This document shows, in pieces, positions 4,190 to 13,168 of a DNA stretch of 64,000 nt. How positions within the stretch are numbered: the first letter of the stretch is position 1; each line of letters opens with the position of its first letter. This DNA comes from Nitrospinaceae bacterium (GTDB lineage: Bacteria > Nitrospinota > Nitrospinia > Nitrospinales > VA-1), in the NCBI GenBank assembly GCA_021604505.1, contig BQJC01000001.1, positions 1,261,501 to 1,325,500 of the forward strand, in the 5' to 3' direction. Under the pieces are notes generated by a model. It had not been told where the DNA came from, did no database searches, and saw only the letters and a list, made by a program, of their open reading frames with translations. The position numbers were made by a program, and so were the translations under genes.

Positions 4190-5227
4190 ATGGATTTATT
4201 CAAATCAATCAAAAAGTCTGATAAAAAAACTCCCCCTGAAAAGGATGCTACCATGGAATTTAACGAGCGCGTCTCCCGCCTTCTCATGGTGTGTATTGAT
4301 GGCATTTGTAAGTTGATTCCTGAAAAGGAAACTCTGTTTGAAAATCTGCAAAGCCTCGGTAAAGTGGTGAGAAAAGCAACCCGCCCCAAACCCCCCGCAG
4401 GTCTCGCGAAAGACATCGAAGACTTTTTCATCCGTCAGCATTTAGAAACCAGTTTTCTGGAAACAAAAAATGAAACGGTGAAACAGATCGTTCTCGATCT
4501 TACGGACACGATCAAAGAGATCACCACCACCACCGGGGATCTCGACAACAAGATGCAGTCGAGTATCGAGGAAATTCAAGCGGCAGGGGACATTGAGGAT
4601 ATTTTAGCGCTCAAAGATGCGATTGTTATGGAAATTAACAAGGTGAGGGTTAATTCGCAATCCATCAAAACGGAACTCAATGAATACCGCAAGACCACGC
4701 AATCTTTATCCTCAAAACTCGAGCAAACGGAAGCCAAAGCGCTTGTGGATTCCCTCACCAATGTTCTGAATAGAAATGCCTACAACATGAAAATTGGCCA
4801 GATGGTCCGGGAGTTTCCAAGATTGAAGGAACACTTTTGTCTGTTGGTTGTCGACATTGATTTTTTTAAGAAGTTTAACGACAAATATGGGCATAAGGCG
4901 GGGGACCGGGTTCTGCGGTCGGTGTCGTCGTCGATTCAGGAGACCCTTCGAGCTTCAGATCTGGTGTTTCGCTATGGCGGCGAAGAATTTGTTATCTTGC
5001 TAAGCGGTATTCAACTCGATAACGCGGTAAAGTTGGCGGAAAAAATTCGCCAGGGAGTTGAAAAGGATTATTTTATTGATAAAGACCGCAAAATGAAAGT
5101 GACCATCAGTCTGGGGGTGGCCTGTGTCAGAGACGATGATACCGAACTCACCCTGTTTGAGCGAGCCGACAAAGCCTTATATTTGGCTAAAGAGAACGGA
5201 AGAAATCGAGTGGAAGTCGGGGCGTGA
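4190..5227 (+). CDS. Diguanylate cyclase (GGDEF domain)
   Basis: The C-terminal GGDEF domain should make cyclic di-GMP from two GTP. The active-site motif reads GGEEF at 263-267. An RASD inhibitory-site motif (RxxD) lies at 254-257, exactly five residues upstream, which predicts product feedback inhibition. The metal and GTP region VDIDFFKKFND at about 221-231 is intact. The N-terminal 180 residues are helical and charged with no recognised sensor domain. A coiled-coil-like stretch at 100-180 may drive dimerisation. No membrane segment or signal peptide is seen, so it is cytoplasmic. It stands alone, about 110 bp after tRNA-Leu. A shorter product starting at the ATG at 4253 is possible. Confidence 0.9.
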   Translation: MDLFKSIKKSDKKTPPEKDATMEFNERVSRLLMVCIDGICKLIPEKETLFENLQSLGKVVRKATRPKPPAGLAKDIEDFFIRQHLETSFLETKNETVKQIVLDLTDTIKEITTTTGDLDNKMQSSIEEIQAAGDIEDILALKDAIVMEINKVRVNSQSIKTELNEYRKTTQSLSSKLEQTEAKALVDSLTNVLNRNAYNMKIGQMVREFPRLKEHFCLLVVDIDFFKKFNDKYGHKAGDRVLRSVSSSIQETLRASDLVFRYGGEEFVILLSGIQLDNAVKLAEKIRQGVEKDYFIDKDRKMKVTISLGVACVRDDDTELTLFERADKALYLAKENGRNRVEVGA

Positions 5228-5371: not shown

Positions 5372-5731
5372 ATGCAAAGCACCACGCTCGGAGAATTATT
5401 TTTCAATCCAGGCTTTCTTTCCATTTTTTTCGCCATCCTGGTCACCATTGCCAATGTGATGATCGGGGTCAGCATGCTTCCGGCGGACAAAAGACGAAAG
5501 CGGTATAAATTTCACCGCTACGTATTTTTTGCGGTTCTCCTGATATACGGATATTTTCTGGCTTGGAATCACTTTTCTCTCGGCAAAAACAGCCTGCTTA
5601 ATTTTTTCGTTTTCGTTTACTTTGCCTGCATCATTCCCCTCAGCAGAAAAGCCAATGTCACAGCCCACGCAATCATATCCTCGGTTGGCCTGGTTTTATT
5701 GACCCTGGTGGCTGTCCTCCATATGGGTTGA
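5372..5731 (+). CDS. Small polytopic membrane protein
   Basis: This 119-residue protein has four likely membrane helices (about 15-37, 47-67, 72-88 and 97-117). Histidines occur near helix ends: FHRY after the first loop, WNHF, TAHAI, and LHMG at the terminus. This pattern resembles small heme- or quinone-associated membrane proteins, but I cannot assign a family. It lies upstream of the flavoprotein and the Rieske/cytochrome b cluster on the same strand, so a link to respiration is possible and only inferred. The ribosome-binding site is weak. Confidence 0.65.
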   Translation: MQSTTLGELFFNPGFLSIFFAILVTIANVMIGVSMLPADKRRKRYKFHRYVFFAVLLIYGYFLAWNHFSLGKNSLLNFFVFVYFACIIPLSRKANVTAHAIISSVGLVLLTLVAVLHMG

Positions 5732-5863: not shown

Positions 5864-7231
5864 ATGGATGAATTTGAGATTGCCATTTTAGGGGCCGGTA
5901 TTTCCGGTATTTCCGCAGCCCAGCGCGCTGCGGAATCAGGCGCCAGAGTGTGCCTCATAGAGAAAGACAGGATTGGCGGCAGATGTGTGCATCAAGGGCT
6001 GTTTCCTTACATGCGCATGATGAATCAAATAGTGATTAATGGAAGCGGTGCTTCTCAACGAGAGGCTGGTGGAAGGGGCAGGGAAGAAATTTCTAAATTA
6101 TTTGAAGACACAATTCAATTTTCTCAGGAAATTTCAAAAAAACGCGAGGCGGCTTTAAAAGAAAGTGGAGTGCATATCGAAACCGGTGAGGGGACTCTGA
6201 TTGGGCCAAATGAAATCCGAATTCTAGGCCCTATGGAAGAAAAAGTAGTCAAGGCTCAAAAAATTATTGTAGCGACCGGTTCCGATATGGAAGCTCCGGC
6301 AACCATGCCCTTCGATGGCGAGAGAATCATTTCCTGCGACGAGGTGTTTAAAGTCGGCAAGGCCCCTGACAGTGTATTGATTCTCGGCGGCGGTGGAGCC
6401 GGGTGCGAACTGGCATCTTTGTACAATAGGCTGGGAAGTAAAACCTTTCTGAGTGATGAGGCGTCCCGCTTGCTTCAGGATCAGGACACGGACATCATCG
6501 AAGCGGCGGAGGGAGGAATGAAGAAGCAAAAAGTAAAAATGCTTCTCAATAAAAAAGTTGTCTCAATTTTTAAAGATGAGAGCGCCATCGATATCTCCCT
6601 CGACGGAGGCGTGAAGTTCGCCGTTCAAACCATGGTTCTGATGTCAGGAAGAAAAGCCCGGACCCAAAATCTGGGTGCGGATGCCATCGGCGTTCGTATC
6701 GGCGAGAAAAGGCAGATTCTGGTCGATGAAAAACAGGAAACAACCGTAAACGGAGTGTATGCTGTAGGAAGTGTTACTGGCCGTGCTTCTTTCCACGGCC
6801 TTTCAGAAGAAGAGGGGAGAGTCGCCGTGGAAAACGCCTTGGGCAAAAAAGCTTCCCTGAATAAAGACTGGATTCCACGGATTGTATACACCCATCCGGA
6901 AATTGCGACTGTGGGTTGTCATGCTCAGGATGCCCACCACAAGGGGTTCCGGGCAGTAGAAGGAATATGTACAAATAATCAACTTGAGCCTTCTTTAATT
7001 CGTGCCGGAGATGCCGGGTTGTTTAAAATTGTTGCCGACAAAACGTCCCGGAAAATCATCGGCGGGCAGATTGTTTCAAGTCGCGCATCAGAATTTATCC
7101 CTTTGATATTGTTATCGATAAAAAGAGGGTTGCCGGTGAGTTCGCTGGCCAGATTGTCCTGCGGAATTTCGACACCGCTTCAAGGAATTCGGGAAGCGGC
7201 GAGAGCTTGTGTTCAGGCGTTGAGAATCTGA
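5864..7231 (+). CDS. Dihydrolipoamide-dehydrogenase-like flavoprotein without redox disulfide
   Basis: The fold is that of the pyridine-nucleotide disulfide oxidoreductases. The FAD motif GAGISG is at 10-15, an NAD(P) motif GGGGAGCE lies at about residue 170, and the dimerisation domain begins near YTHPEIATVG. The 455-residue length is normal. Three hallmarks are altered. The active-site motif, normally GGTCxxxGCxPSK, reads GGRCVHQGLFPYM, keeping Cys 41 and replacing the second Cys with Leu 46. The second FAD motif reads VYAVGSV where an Asp is usual. The C-terminal His-Pro-Thr...Glu catalytic segment is replaced by CGISTPLQG. It therefore cannot do lipoamide-type disulfide chemistry. An NAD(P)H:quinone or one-electron transfer role is conceivable. 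It lies 140 bp upstream of the Rieske gene. Confidence 0.85.
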   Translation: MDEFEIAILGAGISGISAAQRAAESGARVCLIEKDRIGGRCVHQGLFPYMRMMNQIVINGSGASQREAGGRGREEISKLFEDTIQFSQEISKKREAALKESGVHIETGEGTLIGPNEIRILGPMEEKVVKAQKIIVATGSDMEAPATMPFDGERIISCDEVFKVGKAPDSVLILGGGGAGCELASLYNRLGSKTFLSDEASRLLQDQDTDIIEAAEGGMKKQKVKMLLNKKVVSIFKDESAIDISLDGGVKFAVQTMVLMSGRKARTQNLGADAIGVRIGEKRQILVDEKQETTVNGVYAVGSVTGRASFHGLSEEEGRVAVENALGKKASLNKDWIPRIVYTHPEIATVGCHAQDAHHKGFRAVEGICTNNQLEPSLIRAGDAGLFKIVADKTSRKIIGGQIVSSRASEFIPLILLSIKRGLPVSSLARLSCGISTPLQGIREAARACVQALRI

Positions 7232-7371
7232 CTGTGAAGGGCGTAATTGGAATTAACATCTTGTCTTGACTCGATTTTTCAATTATGTTAAAAACCAACT
7301 CTTTGAGTGACATTAGCTGGCGGTTTGCCTTGGCTTTCTACAATTTAACCACTTGAAAAATTAGGTTTTTT

Positions 7372-7941
7372 ATGGCTGAAACCACCGATCAAAAATCCCC
7401 TGCGCCTGCTAAAGCAAAGGGCAAGGGGAAAAAAGATAAAAAGGAATCACCGGTCGACAATTTGTACTCCCGCCGGGATTTTTTTTCCTTTGCTGGATGG
7501 GCCAGTTTTATGGGGGCCCTTGGATTGTCCTCGCTGTATTTTTTGCGCCTTCTTTTCCCCCGGGTTTTGTTCGAACCTTCCCCCATTTTTAAAGCGGGGT
7601 TGCCCAGTGATTACACCGTGGGTGAGGTGAGCACCAAATGGGTTAAGGACCAACGGGTATGGATCGTTCGCGATCAAGAAGGGATTTACGTTATTTTTGC
7701 TCTTTGCACGCATTTGGGGTGCACACCCCGATGGCTTAAAACCGAGAGCAAATACAAATGTCCGTGCCACGGAAGCGGCTTCACTAAAACGGGTATCAAT
7801 TTTGAAGGTCCGGCCCCAAGAGCGCTGGAGCGTTTAAAAATTTCGCTGGGTCCGGATGGCCAGATCGAAATCGATAAAAGCAAAAAATTTCTTTTCGAAA
7901 AGGATGAATGGGACAAACCCGAAGCCAAGCTGCGGGTTTAA
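7372..7941 (+). CDS. Rieske [2Fe-2S] protein of a cytochrome bc complex
   Basis: This is the electron-accepting subunit of the quinol-oxidising complex. Residues 1-28 form a Lys/Ala-rich cytosolic extension. SRRDFF at 33-38 is a Tat-type motif leading into the membrane anchor (about 39-62), so export by Tat is likely. The cluster-binding motifs CTHLGC (Cys 112, His 114, Cys 117) and CPCHGSG (Cys 130, Cys 132, His 133) are complete, and the two loop cysteines for the disulfide (117 and 132) are retained. The gene is followed by cytochrome b-type genes on the same strand. The lysine-rich leader is unusual in length. Confidence 0.95.
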   Translation: MAETTDQKSPAPAKAKGKGKKDKKESPVDNLYSRRDFFSFAGWASFMGALGLSSLYFLRLLFPRVLFEPSPIFKAGLPSDYTVGEVSTKWVKDQRVWIVRDQEGIYVIFALCTHLGCTPRWLKTESKYKCPCHGSGFTKTGINFEGPAPRALERLKISLGPDGQIEIDKSKKFLFEKDEWDKPEAKLRV

Positions 7942-8021: not shown

Positions 8022-8855
8022 TTGGCAACAAAACAACCTGAAATCCCAAATATCGCCGAGATAATGGGTAAGATCAAAAGCGGCAAGATATTCAGCGATA
8101 TTGCAAAGTCAATCACCGAGTCGCAGGTGTGGACGTCCACGTTTCGGCATGGATATGCCGACACACCGCGAAACCGGGTTCTGCAAATTGCCAGTAACGT
8201 CTGGCTGCACCTGCATCCTGTAAAAATCCACCGTCATGCCCTGCGTATCAAGTTCACCTGGTGTATGGGAGGAATCACCTTTCTGCTGTTTTTATCGTTG
8301 GTGGTCACGGGCGTCATTCTCATGTTCTATTACCGCCCGGTGGGTGAGTATGCTTATTTCGATATGAAATATTTGCAATACGACGTTCCTTTCGGAATGT
8401 TGATGAGGAATATGCACCGCTGGGCCGCCCACGCAATGGTAATCACCGTGTGGCTTCATATGTTCCGGGTATTTCTGACAGGTTCCTACAAGCCGCCGCG
8501 CGAATTCAACTGGGTCATTGGCGTCTTTCTCGTCACCTTTACGCTCTTACTGAGTTTCACCGGATACCTTCTCCCTTGGGATCAGTTGGCTATGTGGGCG
8601 GTAACCGTTGGAACCAACATGGCTCGCGCCACACCGTTTCTGGGGCATGAAGGGCCGTTTCAGGAGTTTGTTTTTGGAGTCAGTCCCAGGTATGACGCCC
8701 GGTCTGCGTTGATTGGAGGAAGTATTGTAGGTCCCCCAGCGCTACTTAGATTCTATGTCTTGCATTGTATTTTCATTCCGCTGGTTGCCGGCGCCTTGAT
8801 GATCGTCCATTTTTGGCGGATAAGAAAAGACGGCGGGATTTCGGGTCCCCTTTAA
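8022..8855 (+). CDS. Cytochrome b6-like subunit (N-terminal half of cytochrome b)
   Basis: This is the di-heme core of the quinol oxidase. Four heme-ligand histidines are visible: His 132 and 146 (14 apart) and His 248 and 263 (15 apart, the b6-type spacing). Cys 81 lies in WCMGGIT, aligned with the cysteine that holds the extra covalent heme (heme ci/cn) in cytochrome b6, where the sequence is [19 protein letters not shown] and [16 protein letters not shown] are classic family blocks. The 277 residues include about 60 extra cytosolic residues at the N-terminus. The start is TTG at 8022, chosen because GGAGGG at 8008-8013 is well spaced. The remaining helices are in the next gene, so the cytochrome b is split. 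Confidence 0.95.
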
Positions 8856-8900: not shown

Positions 8901-9653
8901 ATGGCTGAACCAGCCAGGAAAAAAATTGAGGCGGTTGCTGAAAAGGTTCATGTCTGGCCTTATCTGGTACGGCTGGAGTTTCTGTGCGCCATCATCGTCA
9001 CCGTTCTCTTGACGGTATGGTCCATCACGATTGACGCTCCGCTTGAGGAAGCCGCCAACCCGACCAAAACACCCAATCCATCCAAAGCCCCCTGGTATTT
9101 TCTGGGCTTGCAGGACATTCTCGTATACTTTGATCCCTGGTTTGCCGGGGTCATCGCGCCTGTTCTGATAATCGTCGGCCTCATGCTGATTCCCTACCTT
9201 GACGTCAACCCCAAAGGAAATGGTTATTACACGTATACCGAGAGAAAGGTGGCTATTTGGGTTTACAGCTTCGGTTTTCTGGTTTTGTGGATTGCCTTGA
9301 TCATTATGGGGGTTTTTCTGCGCGGTCCGGGGTGGAACCTGTTCATGCCCTGGCAATTCTGGGACCCGCATAAAGTCGTGGCGCTGGTTAATGTGGATTT
9401 ACCCTATGCTTTTGGAGTGCGTTCCTACTGGATGGCTTCGTTTGTCGGCGGGGCAATCACCCTTGGCTACTTTGCCGTGGGAACCGCGGTCTATATGTTT
9501 ATGGAAAGAAAGGCCCTGAAAAGCGTTGGTTTTGTCCGCATGTTCCTGAAGATCCAGCTCATCCTCATTATGATCGGCATCGTGATCAAAATCGTTTTAC
9601 GGTTGGCTTTTAATATCAAATATATCTGGGTAACTCCCTGGTTTAACGTTTAA
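8901..9653 (+). CDS. Cytochrome b C-terminal subunit (subunit IV-like)
   Basis: This gene supplies the C-terminal helices of cytochrome b that complete the quinol-oxidation site. The block KAPWYFLGLQDILVYF occupies the position of the PEWY motif, with Pro in place of Glu. The following stretch GVIAPVLIIVGLMLIPYLD is typical. At 250 residues it is longer than chloroplast subunit IV (about 160). The extra C-terminal part has two more hydrophobic segments (about 175-200 and 212-235). The gene lies 45 bp after the b6-like gene, and both are followed by the octaheme cytochrome, so one operon is likely. Confidence 0.92.
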   Translation: MAEPARKKIEAVAEKVHVWPYLVRLEFLCAIIVTVLLTVWSITIDAPLEEAANPTKTPNPSKAPWYFLGLQDILVYFDPWFAGVIAPVLIIVGLMLIPYLDVNPKGNGYYTYTERKVAIWVYSFGFLVLWIALIIMGVFLRGPGWNLFMPWQFWDPHKVVALVNVDLPYAFGVRSYWMASFVGGAITLGYFAVGTAVYMFMERKALKSVGFVRMFLKIQLILIMIGIVIKIVLRLAFNIKYIWVTPWFNV

Positions 9654-9685: not shown

Positions 9686-12412
9686 TTGGACGATCAAGAA
9701 AAATCAGACGATCAGGAAAAAAATGAAGGTTACGTACCGGTAGAAAAGGTCTCCTTCAGTTTTGTGTTCTTCCTTGTTTCCGGAGCCACGCTTCTGGTGA
9801 CCCTGTGGGCGTTTTGGGATGATGAGTATACCCGTCGCGGGTTCAAGGCTCACCAGGAGGAATACTTCAAGGTTCAGTACGCCAGGGCGGAGGCCGATTG
9901 GAAGCAGGTCAATACCGATGTTTCCTCCAAGGAAAGCCAGATCAAGGAACAGTTGGATCAGGTGCAGGGAAAACTGGAGGAATCCGAGGAATACCAGGAA
10001 CTGGTTGAAAAAACCCGCATCGCTGAAATTGCCCTGGCTGAAATAAAAGAGGAAAGGAAGTTCACCGGCAGTCGCTTGGACGAGGCCTATTATTATTATA
10101 AAAAGGCCATGCATGAGGGCCAGAACTACGACGTCCAGCTTGCGACATACAACACTCTGGAAAAAGAGTATAAGGACTGGGACCCGAAGGTTGCAGTCAA
10201 GCAAAAAGAATATGATGAGGCGGAATCCAAACTTCTGGAGTTTAAGGCGCAGTACGTTACCCTCGAAAAGGAATTAAAGAATCTGACCCTCAAACGCGAC
10301 CAGATTCAAAGGACGATGGACTACTACAAGCCCTTTCCTTTTGTCTGGAGACCGGCGGAAATTTTACAGACGGTCATTCCCGGTTTTGGAAAAAACAGTT
10401 TCTCTGAAATTATTTACCGTGTCGACAGGTGCATGACCTGTCATATTTCGTATCAAGATGAATATTATAAGGATTTCAAACAGCCTCTGAAAACCCATCC
10501 CGATCTGGATATTCTGATAAATAAACATCCACCGGAAAGAACCGGCTGTACCTGGTGTCATCTTGGGCAGGGCACAGCGACCGCGCCCGCGGAACACGCA
10601 CATGGTTCGCATCACGAGACCGACCAGACCACGGAAATCAACGAGCCGATCCTGCACGGGAATTTTATGCAGGCGACCTGCCGCAATTGCCACGCCGAGG
10701 TATTGAACCTGGAAGGTGCTCCGGTATTGTCGAAAGGTAAAAATTTATTTGTGAAGCTGGGCTGTCATGGGTGTCATCTGGCCGACGGATATTCGCAAGA
10801 GGGCAAAGTTGGCCCCCGTCTGCTGCGGATCGGTTCGAAAGTGAATCCCAGCTGGTTGTACCGCTGGGTCAAAAACCCCAAAGAGTATCTGCCGAATACC
10901 CGAATGCCCGACTTTGGATTCAATGACAAAGATGCCCTTGCGGTCACGGCATACCTTCTAGCCGTTTCAGATAAAGCCTATAAACCTGCGGAAAAGTTTG
11001 TTTCCGGTGATCCTGCAAAAGGCCAAAAGGAATTTGAAAGTGTGGGGTGTCAGGCTTGTCATACATTAAATGGCAAGGGAGAAAAATTCGGTCCCGATCT
11101 CAGCAATATAGCCAGCAAAGTCAACCCTGACTGGCTGGTCAGCTGGGTGGGGAATCCGACGCATTACAACGATCAAAGTAAAATGCCCAACCTCAGGCTG
11201 ACCAAGAAACAAGCGTCGAATATAGCCGCTTATCTATTGCAATTTGGGAAACCAAAACATATTGCAGGAATCAAAACCCGCGTCACGCACCCGAAAATGA
11301 TTGCCCATGGCAAAAACGTGGTTCGCCAGAGGGGATGTTACGCCTGCCACGACATCAAGGGCATGGAATCGGAAGGCCGTATTGGGCCAGAGCTGTCCTT
11401 TTTTGGAAGAAAATTGATCCTTGAACTGGAGTTTGGAGATTCTCACATTCCTCATACCTGGGAAGCCTGGGTGAGAAACAAGCTGAAAAAACCGGATTCT
11501 TACAAAACTGAAAGGGTTTTGGACAAGATGCCGAATTTCCACCTCGAGGCGGATGAAATTGACGCGCTGGTGGTTCTCCTCAAAGGGTTCAATGGCACCA
11601 AGGTTCCCGCAAAATACAGAAAAATATTGACCGAAAAAGAGCAAACCCTGGAGACAGGCCGCCGGCTCATTGATAAATTCAATTGTCGGGGGTGTCACCA
11701 CGTTGAGGGCGAAGGCGGATACATCCAGAATTATATCAAATCAAGGGCCCAGTATCCGCCGCCTTTGGAAAACGGGTCTTACCATGTTGGAGAGCGGATC
11801 AAAGGCTCGTGGTTATTTTCCTTTCTGAAAAACCCGACTCCGGTCAGGACCTGGTTGAAAGTTAAGATGCCGACCTTTAACTTCACCGATCAGGAAGTCC
11901 GTGATCTCACTGCTTACTTTGAAGCCCTTTCTCCGGAAGAGATCAAGTACGAAGCCGGAGTTCACATGGAAAAAGATCCCGAGGTTGTGCAAACCGGGGT
12001 GGGAATTGTCAATTATATGGACTGCGGGAAGTGTCATGACGACGGCGCCAAAGGCATCGACTTTTCCATTGCCAGCAAACGTTTGCGTCAAAACTGGATT
12101 TCCCGCTGGATGAAGGACACGCGTGAAATGATCCCGTGGACCAAAATGCCCTCCCATTGGGATAAGGAAGGTGATAAGTATCTGGTCAAGACCAAATTTG
12201 AAGATTTGGAAACGGTTGGGGGGGTGGATAAACAGGTTGATGCCATCAAGGATTTTATCGTCGCCTATAACTCCGCCGATGTAGATTTCGATTTCGTGCT
12301 GGGGGAGGAACCTAGTGCGGAAGGAAGCGAGGACGAGGGAGAAGAGGCGGGTGACGAAGAAGCCAGCGATGAAGAAGATGAAGAAGAGGAAGAAGAGGAG
12401 TTTTTAGAGTAG
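9686..12412 (+). CDS. Membrane-anchored octaheme cytochrome c of the bc complex
   Basis: This 908-residue protein should carry electrons from the Rieske centre outward. It has one N-terminal membrane helix (about 22-43) with a cytosolic N-terminus, a long charged coiled-coil region (about 55-212), then eight CxxCH heme-binding motifs: CMTCH at 249-253, CTWCH, CRNCH, CHGCH, CQACH, CYACH, CRGCH and CGKCH. Several of these sit in mono-heme cytochrome c modules, with downstream Met-containing loops such as NTRMPDF, QSKMPN and KVKMPTF giving likely sixth ligands. The last 35 residues are almost all Glu/Asp. The start is TTG at 9686, and the ribosome-binding site is weak. The arrangement fits complex III variants in which the c1 partner is a multiheme protein. 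Confidence 0.93.
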   Translation: MDDQEKSDDQEKNEGYVPVEKVSFSFVFFLVSGATLLVTLWAFWDDEYTRRGFKAHQEEYFKVQYARAEADWKQVNTDVSSKESQIKEQLDQVQGKLEESEEYQELVEKTRIAEIALAEIKEERKFTGSRLDEAYYYYKKAMHEGQNYDVQLATYNTLEKEYKDWDPKVAVKQKEYDEAESKLLEFKAQYVTLEKELKNLTLKRDQIQRTMDYYKPFPFVWRPAEILQTVIPGFGKNSFSEIIYRVDRCMTCHISYQDEYYKDFKQPLKTHPDLDILINKHPPERTGCTWCHLGQGTATAPAEHAHGSHHETDQTTEINEPILHGNFMQATCRNCHAEVLNLEGAPVLSKGKNLFVKLGCHGCHLADGYSQEGKVGPRLLRIGSKVNPSWLYRWVKNPKEYLPNTRMPDFGFNDKDALAVTAYLLAVSDKAYKPAEKFVSGDPAKGQKEFESVGCQACHTLNGKGEKFGPDLSNIASKVNPDWLVSWVGNPTHYNDQSKMPNLRLTKKQASNIAAYLLQFGKPKHIAGIKTRVTHPKMIAHGKNVVRQRGCYACHDIKGMESEGRIGPELSFFGRKLILELEFGDSHIPHTWEAWVRNKLKKPDSYKTERVLDKMPNFHLEADEIDALVVLLKGFNGTKVPAKYRKILTEKEQTLETGRRLIDKFNCRGCHHVEGEGGYIQNYIKSRAQYPPPLENGSYHVGERIKGSWLFSFLKNPTPVRTWLKVKMPTFNFTDQEVRDLTAYFEALSPEEIKYEAGVHMEKDPEVVQTGVGIVNYMDCGKCHDDGAKGIDFSIASKRLRQNWISRWMKDTREMIPWTKMPSHWDKEGDKYLVKTKFEDLETVGGVDKQVDAIKDFIVAYNSADVDFDFVLGEEPSAEGSEDEGEEAGDEEASDEEDEEEEEEEFLE

Positions 12413-12673: not shown

Positions 12674-13168
12674 GTGGGCATATTCATAATATCATTCATT
12701 GCTTTTTTTGTGGGATTGGTTCTCATCATCCTGCTGAAAAACACCTCTCCGCCGCCCCCGCAGGAACAAATACATTTTGCAAATCCAGACGACAAGCCCC
12801 TCTATCTGATCGATCCGGATGAATTTAAAGATAAGTGCCTTGATTTCCTGAAAAAATTCAACCTGGAATATGTGCACTCCATCTGGGCGAACGAGCATGA
12901 GCTTGAAATCATCATGAACGATGAAACCCCGGTGGTTGGCGGCACCTACCTGGCTCTTTGTATTATCGACCCACCCAACAACACCGTTGATGTCATGAAA
13001 GTTAAAGGTTTCCTGGATACCGTCAAAGGAGAAGGCGCTTCCAGGGGGATTTTTATAACCACAGGGTATTTTTCCGATGAAGCTATCCGGTCGATTGAGG
13101 AAGAACCCGTGGAACTGGTCAACGTGGCTTCATTTGTTAAATACCTGAAAAAATTTGAAATCTATTGA
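12674..13168 (+). CDS. Membrane-anchored Mrr-like (restriction endonuclease-fold) protein
   Basis: The N-terminal helix (about 2-21) would anchor it in the membrane. Residues 45-160 resemble the Mrr-type PD-(D/E)xK nuclease fold, especially GFLDTVKGEGASRGIFITTGYFSDEA, where the family has a Q-x-K core followed by a glycine-rich strand and (I/F)TT. Here the usual acidic and Q-x-K catalytic residues do not line up clearly, so nuclease activity is doubtful. A prolines-only linker (SPPPPQ) joins helix and domain. The start is GTG at 12674, directly abutting the previous stop. The placement next to a respiratory complex is odd. Confidence 0.6.
   Translation: MGIFIISFIAFFVGLVLIILLKNTSPPPPQEQIHFANPDDKPLYLIDPDEFKDKCLDFLKKFNLEYVHSIWANEHELEIIMNDETPVVGGTYLALCIIDPPNNTVDVMKVKGFLDTVKGEGASRGIFITTGYFSDEAIRSIEEEPVELVNVASFVKYLKKFEIY

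Follow-up and report, generated by a model that had tools for sequence, protein, structure and literature searches.

Several relatives of dihydrolipoyl dehydrogenase (LPD) have been described in which the redox centre is partly or wholly gone and electrons from NAD(P)H are passed to other acceptors, namely LpdA of M. tuberculosis, the soluble transhydrogenases and Irc15p of yeast (PMC6296175). In LpdA (Rv3303c), which reduces quinones, one of the redox Cys residues and the His-Glu pair are missing; in the soluble transhydrogenases the catalytic His and one or both redox Cys residues are missing; and in Irc15p the redox Cys pair has gone, yet the protein binds FAD and NADH reduces it rapidly (PMC6296175). 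Since all of these proteins pass on electrons from NAD(P)H, loss of the disulfide alone need not mean that a member of this group is inert.

The Rieske/cytochrome b complexes of the anammox bacterium Kuenenia (Kustd1480-1485 and Kuste4569-4574) possess NAD(P) oxidoreductase subunits (PMC12954380). For Nitrospinota, which exceed all other known marine nitrite oxidisers in abundance (PMC10839748), the complex III operon of Nitrospina gracilis is described as consisting of Rieske, split cytochrome b and octahaem cytochrome c genes (PMC3578206). This arrangement is also that of the 64,000-nucleotide stretch of DNA analysed here (the window), where a multihaem cytochrome c gene occupies the position matching that of the octahaem protein. 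How Nitrospinota drive electrons uphill through an enzyme resembling complex III has so far been a hypothesis drawn from genomes (PMC3578206). In the passages searched, that work does not mention an upstream flavoprotein or a gene for a protein with four transmembrane helices (4-TM), and lipoamide gives no match.

Identification of the flavoprotein

The genome from which the window derives is that of a member of Nitrospinota (3.64 Mb, 14 contigs). An intact ORF on its + strand (5864-7231) encodes a flavoprotein of 455 aa with the Pfam domains PF07992 (Pyr_redox_2) and PF02852 (Pyr_redox_dim), and no Fer4 or other Fe-S domain was identified in it with Pfam. Its best NCBIfam match was dihydrolipoyl dehydrogenase (TIGR01350), at 269.6 bits and below the cut-off of 408.8. 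Scores for soluble transhydrogenase (NF003585, 234.4 bits, cut-off 465) and NAD(P)H-quinone dehydrogenase (NF005883, 204.6 bits, cut-off 479) also fell short, the latter by far. A separate, canonical LPD scoring above the cut-off (489.5 bits) is encoded elsewhere in the same genome.

The initial annotation had proposed that the protein keeps the LPD fold, and this was borne out by an AlphaFold2 model (pLDDT 92.0, pTM 0.89) that matched solved LPD structures over its full length (TM 0.90, 25% identity). Compared with dihydrolipoyl dehydrogenase (TIGR01350; 6uzi, 2qae, 1dxl), the flavoprotein was found to share the whole fold, the dimerisation domain, the FAD-binding GxGxxG motif (G10/G12/G15) and Glu33, but to be without CxxxxC and HPxxxxE and to have Ser in place of the Asp of the second FAD motif. 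Within the flavoprotein disulfide reductase family, it joins the known proteins that have no disulfide. No description of a pseudo-oxidoreductase at this upstream position was found in the literature searched, nor a paper tying Nitrospina, dihydrolipoamide dehydrogenase and Rieske together.

Altered residues among the orthologues

The window protein was compared with 48 full-length orthologues from four families of one Nitrospinota order, which together make up the altered family. At the former redox site (5984-6001, + strand) residues 38-50 read GGRCVHQGLFPYM, with Cys41 kept and the second active-site Cys replaced by Leu46, as the initial annotation had reported. Retention of this Cys does not characterise the family, a Cys being present at the first position in only 14 of the 48 orthologues and at the second in none, so that CxxxxC is found in 0/48. 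The active-site Lys is present in seven. In the segment of the former catalytic HPTxxE (7166-7183, + strand), which reads SCGISTPLQG and matches the earlier reading of CGISTPLQG, I435 stands at the position of His, S436 at that of Pro and Q440 at that of Glu (I435-S-T-P-L-Q440). The His was not found in any orthologue and the Glu was found in four. Loss of the redox disulfide and of the His-Glu pair, as originally claimed for the window protein, is thus a property of the family, and its occurrence in 48 orthologues of one order is well beyond chance.

The flavin-proximal segment has also been remodelled. The second FAD motif of the window protein reads AVGS303 in place of GD, the Ser (6770-6772, + strand) that had been noted earlier being present in 48/48 orthologues and the Asp in none, whereas GD is kept in all intact relatives checked. 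In contrast to these losses, the glycines of the FAD Rossmann motif were kept in 47-48 of the 48 orthologues and Glu33 in 45. Further constraints specific to the family are Lys230 and Ser234, which are invariant, and Lys251, Phe252 and Cys449, which are conserved at 94-98%; Cys449 (7208-7210, + strand) is present in 45/48 and missing from the intact relatives aligned.

The glycine motif of the NAD(P) domain (GGGGAG, residues 175-180; 6386-6403, + strand) is intact in the window protein. Of the 48 orthologues, 27 preserve the consensus GxGxx[G/A] and 21 do not; in some of the latter Asp, Glu or Asn occupies the position of the second Gly. Since almost half of the orthologues have an eroded motif, and the FAD motif and other residues stay, a mostly non-NAD(P)H, FAD-binding role is favoured. 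The suggestion of an NAD(P)H-linked electron donor, made from the window protein alone, is accordingly unsupported as a role for the whole family.

Distribution, phylogeny and selection

A phylum-wide search identified strong relatives in 52 of 77 genomes, and the remaining full-length matches in the phylum (L079, L083, L084) were found to be intact LPDs. The search was widened to the genomes of 84,980 species (257 Gb) using the family alignment as query; in the contig scan the single protein sequence from the window gave no match and the alignment did. Altered members were confined to Nitrospinota with the exception of one contig labelled Alphaproteobacteria, and the other relatives keep GD. 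This contig (L130), from a MAG and 5.7 kb in length, bears a family member with 67% identity and may be mis-binned Nitrospinota. A further locus labelled Nitrospirae (L144) has the same sequence as a genome of family f1 of the phylum (compare L049).

In phylogenetic analysis the altered proteins fell together in a single clade, set apart by one branch with an SH-aLRT of 100. Regarding descent from the LPD found by Rieske in family f9, several placements were not rejected by AU tests, and the favoured grouping had a support of 65.

Identity to the window flavoprotein ranged from 33 to 67%, as against approximately 90% or more for cytochrome b. The dN/dS of the flavoprotein was 0.08-0.31 in all but one of 15 close or moderate pairs, dS being saturated in the remaining one; the values were 0.00-0.06 for cytochrome b and 0.005-0.16 for Rieske. 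By these estimates the flavoprotein is evolving faster than its neighbours, yet under purifying selection.

The absence of catalytic residues and this rapid divergence might be taken to indicate an LPD pseudogene in decay. That explanation is extremely improbable: the reading frame is open in 48/48 orthologues with no internal stops, new residues have become fixed across the order, and a canonical LPD is present elsewhere in the genome. The dN/dS values indicate that the altered residues are not a product of decay, and together with the conservation they led to the rejection of the decaying pseudogene. Decay specific to a strain, one of the outcomes that the initial annotation had named as fatal to its proposal, is ruled out by the same values, the open frames and the single clade.

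Gene order and the Rieske operon

Downstream of the flavoprotein, the + strand of the window carries genes for a Rieske [2Fe-2S] protein (7372-7941), a cytochrome b6-type subunit (8022-8855), subunit IV corresponding to the C-terminal part of cytochrome b (8901-9653) and the multihaem cytochrome c of the complex (9686-12412). The Rieske ORF begins at 7372, approximately 140 bp 3’ of the flavoprotein stop, in agreement with the position directly upstream of the Rieske/cytochrome b genes given in the initial annotation. The linkage is conserved: Rieske lies directly downstream of the flavoprotein in 45 of 49 loci, with a median gap of 148 bp. Of the four exceptions, L044 and L069 are contig ends, and L060 and L066, from one genus, represent a real breakpoint at which the 4-TM gene has stayed with the flavoprotein and the Rieske operon sits elsewhere in the same genomes.

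Genomes of the order without a full flavoprotein match were also found to be without an intact copy of the cytochrome b of this operon, which suggests that neither occurs without the other; incomplete assemblies are frequent among these genomes. In one single-contig genome (G057:C1; L124 and L125) the cytochrome b of the operon is split into parts approximately 70 kb from each other and the flavoprotein is incomplete, reflecting either a misassembly or a real rearrangement.

Further out from these genes, most members also have tpi, secG, Mrr_cat and MTHFR in a common order. A gene for a GGDEF protein (4190-5227, + strand) lies upstream and adjoins the 4-TM and flavoprotein pair in 27/49 loci, so is not obligatory. 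A protein with an Mrr_cat domain, which is restriction-endonuclease-like, and an apparent N-terminal membrane helix is encoded at 12674-13168 of the window; such a protein was found 3’ of the multihaem cytochrome c in 29 loci, these being all loci in which it was detected. A broad molybdopterin-family model, used to look for a tie to nitrite oxidation, had no match in the genome of the window and was matched in only a minority of the members of the order.

Within the gap between the flavoprotein and Rieske, a block of approximately 50 bp (7256-7306, + strand) is nearly invariant across five species, and its flanks diverge. It contains TTGACT (7266-7271) and TAAAAA (7289-7294) separated by a 17-nt spacer, at -106 from the Rieske start; a simple promoter scan, which accepts only second hexamers ending in T, does not report it. 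No second copy of the 28-nt core occurs in the genome even when three mismatches are allowed. The TTGAC element was identified in the same sequence context in 45/45 flavoprotein-Rieske gaps examined, and also 5’ of Rieske in the two rearranged genomes in which the flavoprotein is elsewhere, suggesting that the Rieske operon probably has its own promoter. The block probably serves complex III as promoter/operator in this order, and the flavoprotein and mem119 genes probably form a unit that precedes the Rieske operon. Given this conserved element, the two units need not be co-transcribed.

Judged from the sequences, adjacency is weaker evidence of shared function than it looks, because Rieske has this promoter-like element of its own, the wider gene order is also conserved and in two genomes the genes are apart. 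In an analysis of rate covariation the flavoprotein showed no specific tie to Rieske, cytb or petD, the top residuals being with tpi and MTHFR, though the test is without power here, as the known partners Rieske and cytb show no signal either.

The 4-TM protein mem119

The 4-TM gene (5372-5731, + strand) encodes a membrane protein of 119 aa, designated mem119, with four helices, and was found 5’ of the flavoprotein in 42 of 42 assessable loci with a median gap of 80 bp. Its invariant residues are Asn28, His48, His99 and Ser104. As basic loops lie beside both His residues, the positive-inside rule would place His48 and His99 on the cytoplasmic side. A Pfam search gave nothing credible, and in a fold search no PDB entry reached E<=0.001, the matches being generic helix bundles. 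Like the flavoprotein, mem119 was found only in this Nitrospinota order, and is regarded as a new family of predicted membrane proteins. Most genomes also possess one distant paralogue (G000:C3:334686-335018 for example); in the copies read both His residues are kept, and these copies have an SDR gene and genes for sulfate activation (cysND-like) in their vicinity.

NAD(P) oxidoreductases at outgroup loci

One outgroup genome (G001) encodes a protein of 611 aa with Fe-S domains, a GltD-like NAD(P) oxidoreductase (L118:5793-7625), directly 5’ of a Rieske/cytochrome b cluster. The whole cluster (L118:5793-18066) consists of this gene followed by two tandem sets of Rieske, cytochrome b, subunit IV and cytochrome c genes, and the cytochrome b of the second set is 80% identical to that of the window. 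In two genomes of family f9 the order is intact LPD, NfnA-like, GltD/NfnB-like, Rieske, cytochrome b and subunit IV (L083:58-6348, L084:1-9106), the Nfn- and GltD-like names having been assigned by sequence inspection only. In L084 this block is followed by a cytochrome c gene and, after that, by a second GltD-like gene. These clusters, in which an intact LPD and an Nfn-like pair stand with the Rieske/cytochrome b genes, may encode an NAD(P)H-linked bc complex in organisms other than anammox bacteria.

The anammox complexes resemble the window in having a flavoprotein gene by Rieske, a split cytochrome b and a multihaem cytochrome c, and L118 and L084 are similar. They differ in that their flavoproteins bear Fe-S clusters, whereas that of the window is LPD-like, with neither an Fe-S domain nor a disulfide. 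The L118 and f9 loci indicate that the flank of the complex is a site of flavoprotein oxidoreductases, at which the copy of this order has lost its redox centre. Since two outgroup lineages hold real oxidoreductases there, the flavoprotein may be a remnant or a re-use of an NAD(P) oxidoreductase module.

Proposed role of the flavoprotein

The comparisons above identify the flavoprotein as a predicted pseudo-oxidoreductase that is real, order-wide, under selection and adjoining complex III. We infer its FAD occupancy, dimeric state, location, contact with complex III or mem119, and role, as follows. The LPD-derived protein would probably be a cytoplasmic homodimer that may still bind FAD, or at least its ADP half. 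Disulfide chemistry would no longer be possible, and hydride uptake from NAD(P)H would probably be absent in many lineages. The protein would work with mem119 and complex III in a structural, assembly or sensing role. Support for a partner of complex III comes from the conserved Rieske and mem119 neighbours, the range confined to one order that it shares with mem119, its joint absence with cytochrome b, the oxidoreductases flanking the complex in the outgroups and the NAD(P) oxidoreductase subunits of the Kuenenia complexes (PMC12954380). An FAD-binding pseudo-oxidoreductase acting with mem119 at complex III in one of these capacities is the favoured explanation, although it is held tentatively and falls short of probable.

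Ranked next is an NAD(P)H:quinone (or other acceptor) reductase of the LpdA or Irc15p kind, in which FAD would be reduced directly by hydride from NAD(P)H and electrons passed on to quinone or the neighbouring complex, as the initial annotation had suggested in outline. The precedents of LpdA, Irc15p and the soluble transhydrogenase (PMC6296175) are joined here by the GGGGAG motif retained in the window protein and by the presence of a quinol-oxidising complex as neighbour, which fits a quinone substrate. The precedents differ from the Nitrospinota proteins, however, in what they have kept. LpdA likewise has one redox Cys and the His-Glu pair missing, but in most Nitrospinota orthologues the first Cys has also gone, as have the FAD-motif Asp in all and the NAD(P) motif in 21. 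Irc15p is similarly an LPD relative without the redox Cys pair and still binds FAD (PMC6296175), yet its catalytic dyad is retained, NADH reduces it efficiently and it associates with microtubules. The soluble (Si-specific) pyridine nucleotide transhydrogenase (NF003585; 9n4y) is likewise missing a catalytic His and one or both redox Cys residues, but the transhydrogenase-like relatives examined retain GD and the PTxxE segment, both of which are altered in the flavoprotein. With the NF005883 score also far under its cut-off, a reductase is considered unlikely, though it remains the main competitor. Placed third, and given less credence again, is a conserved role that has nothing to do with complex III, for instance with mem119 alone or in thiol or nucleotide sensing, adjacency to Rieske then reflecting slow change of gene order. 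The separate promoter-like element, the common order from tpi to MTHFR, the two genomes with the genes apart and the residuals of the powerless rate test are all consistent with this. Against it, L048 (family f3) keeps mem119, flavoprotein and Rieske together, the tpi-secG-GGDEF side not being found within 19 kb, and across the order a genome has either both the flavoprotein and the complex III genes or neither.

A more specific form of the favoured explanation is that the complex III of this order recruited an inactivated flavoenzyme and a 4-TM protein with a His pair as accessory subunits of its cytoplasmic face, where relatives carry a working NAD(P) oxidoreductase. This is offered as speculation and is on balance doubtful. 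Mitochondrial complex III contains core proteins derived from peptidases, and the recruited flavoenzyme and 4-TM subunits would, if this is correct, be a bacterial counterpart of these. The flavoprotein has probably taken on a new job in the respiratory membrane or next to it. Its family provides a case for studying the transition from flavoenzyme to non-enzyme. Along with mem119, it represents one of two concrete candidates for accessory subunits or regulators of complex III.
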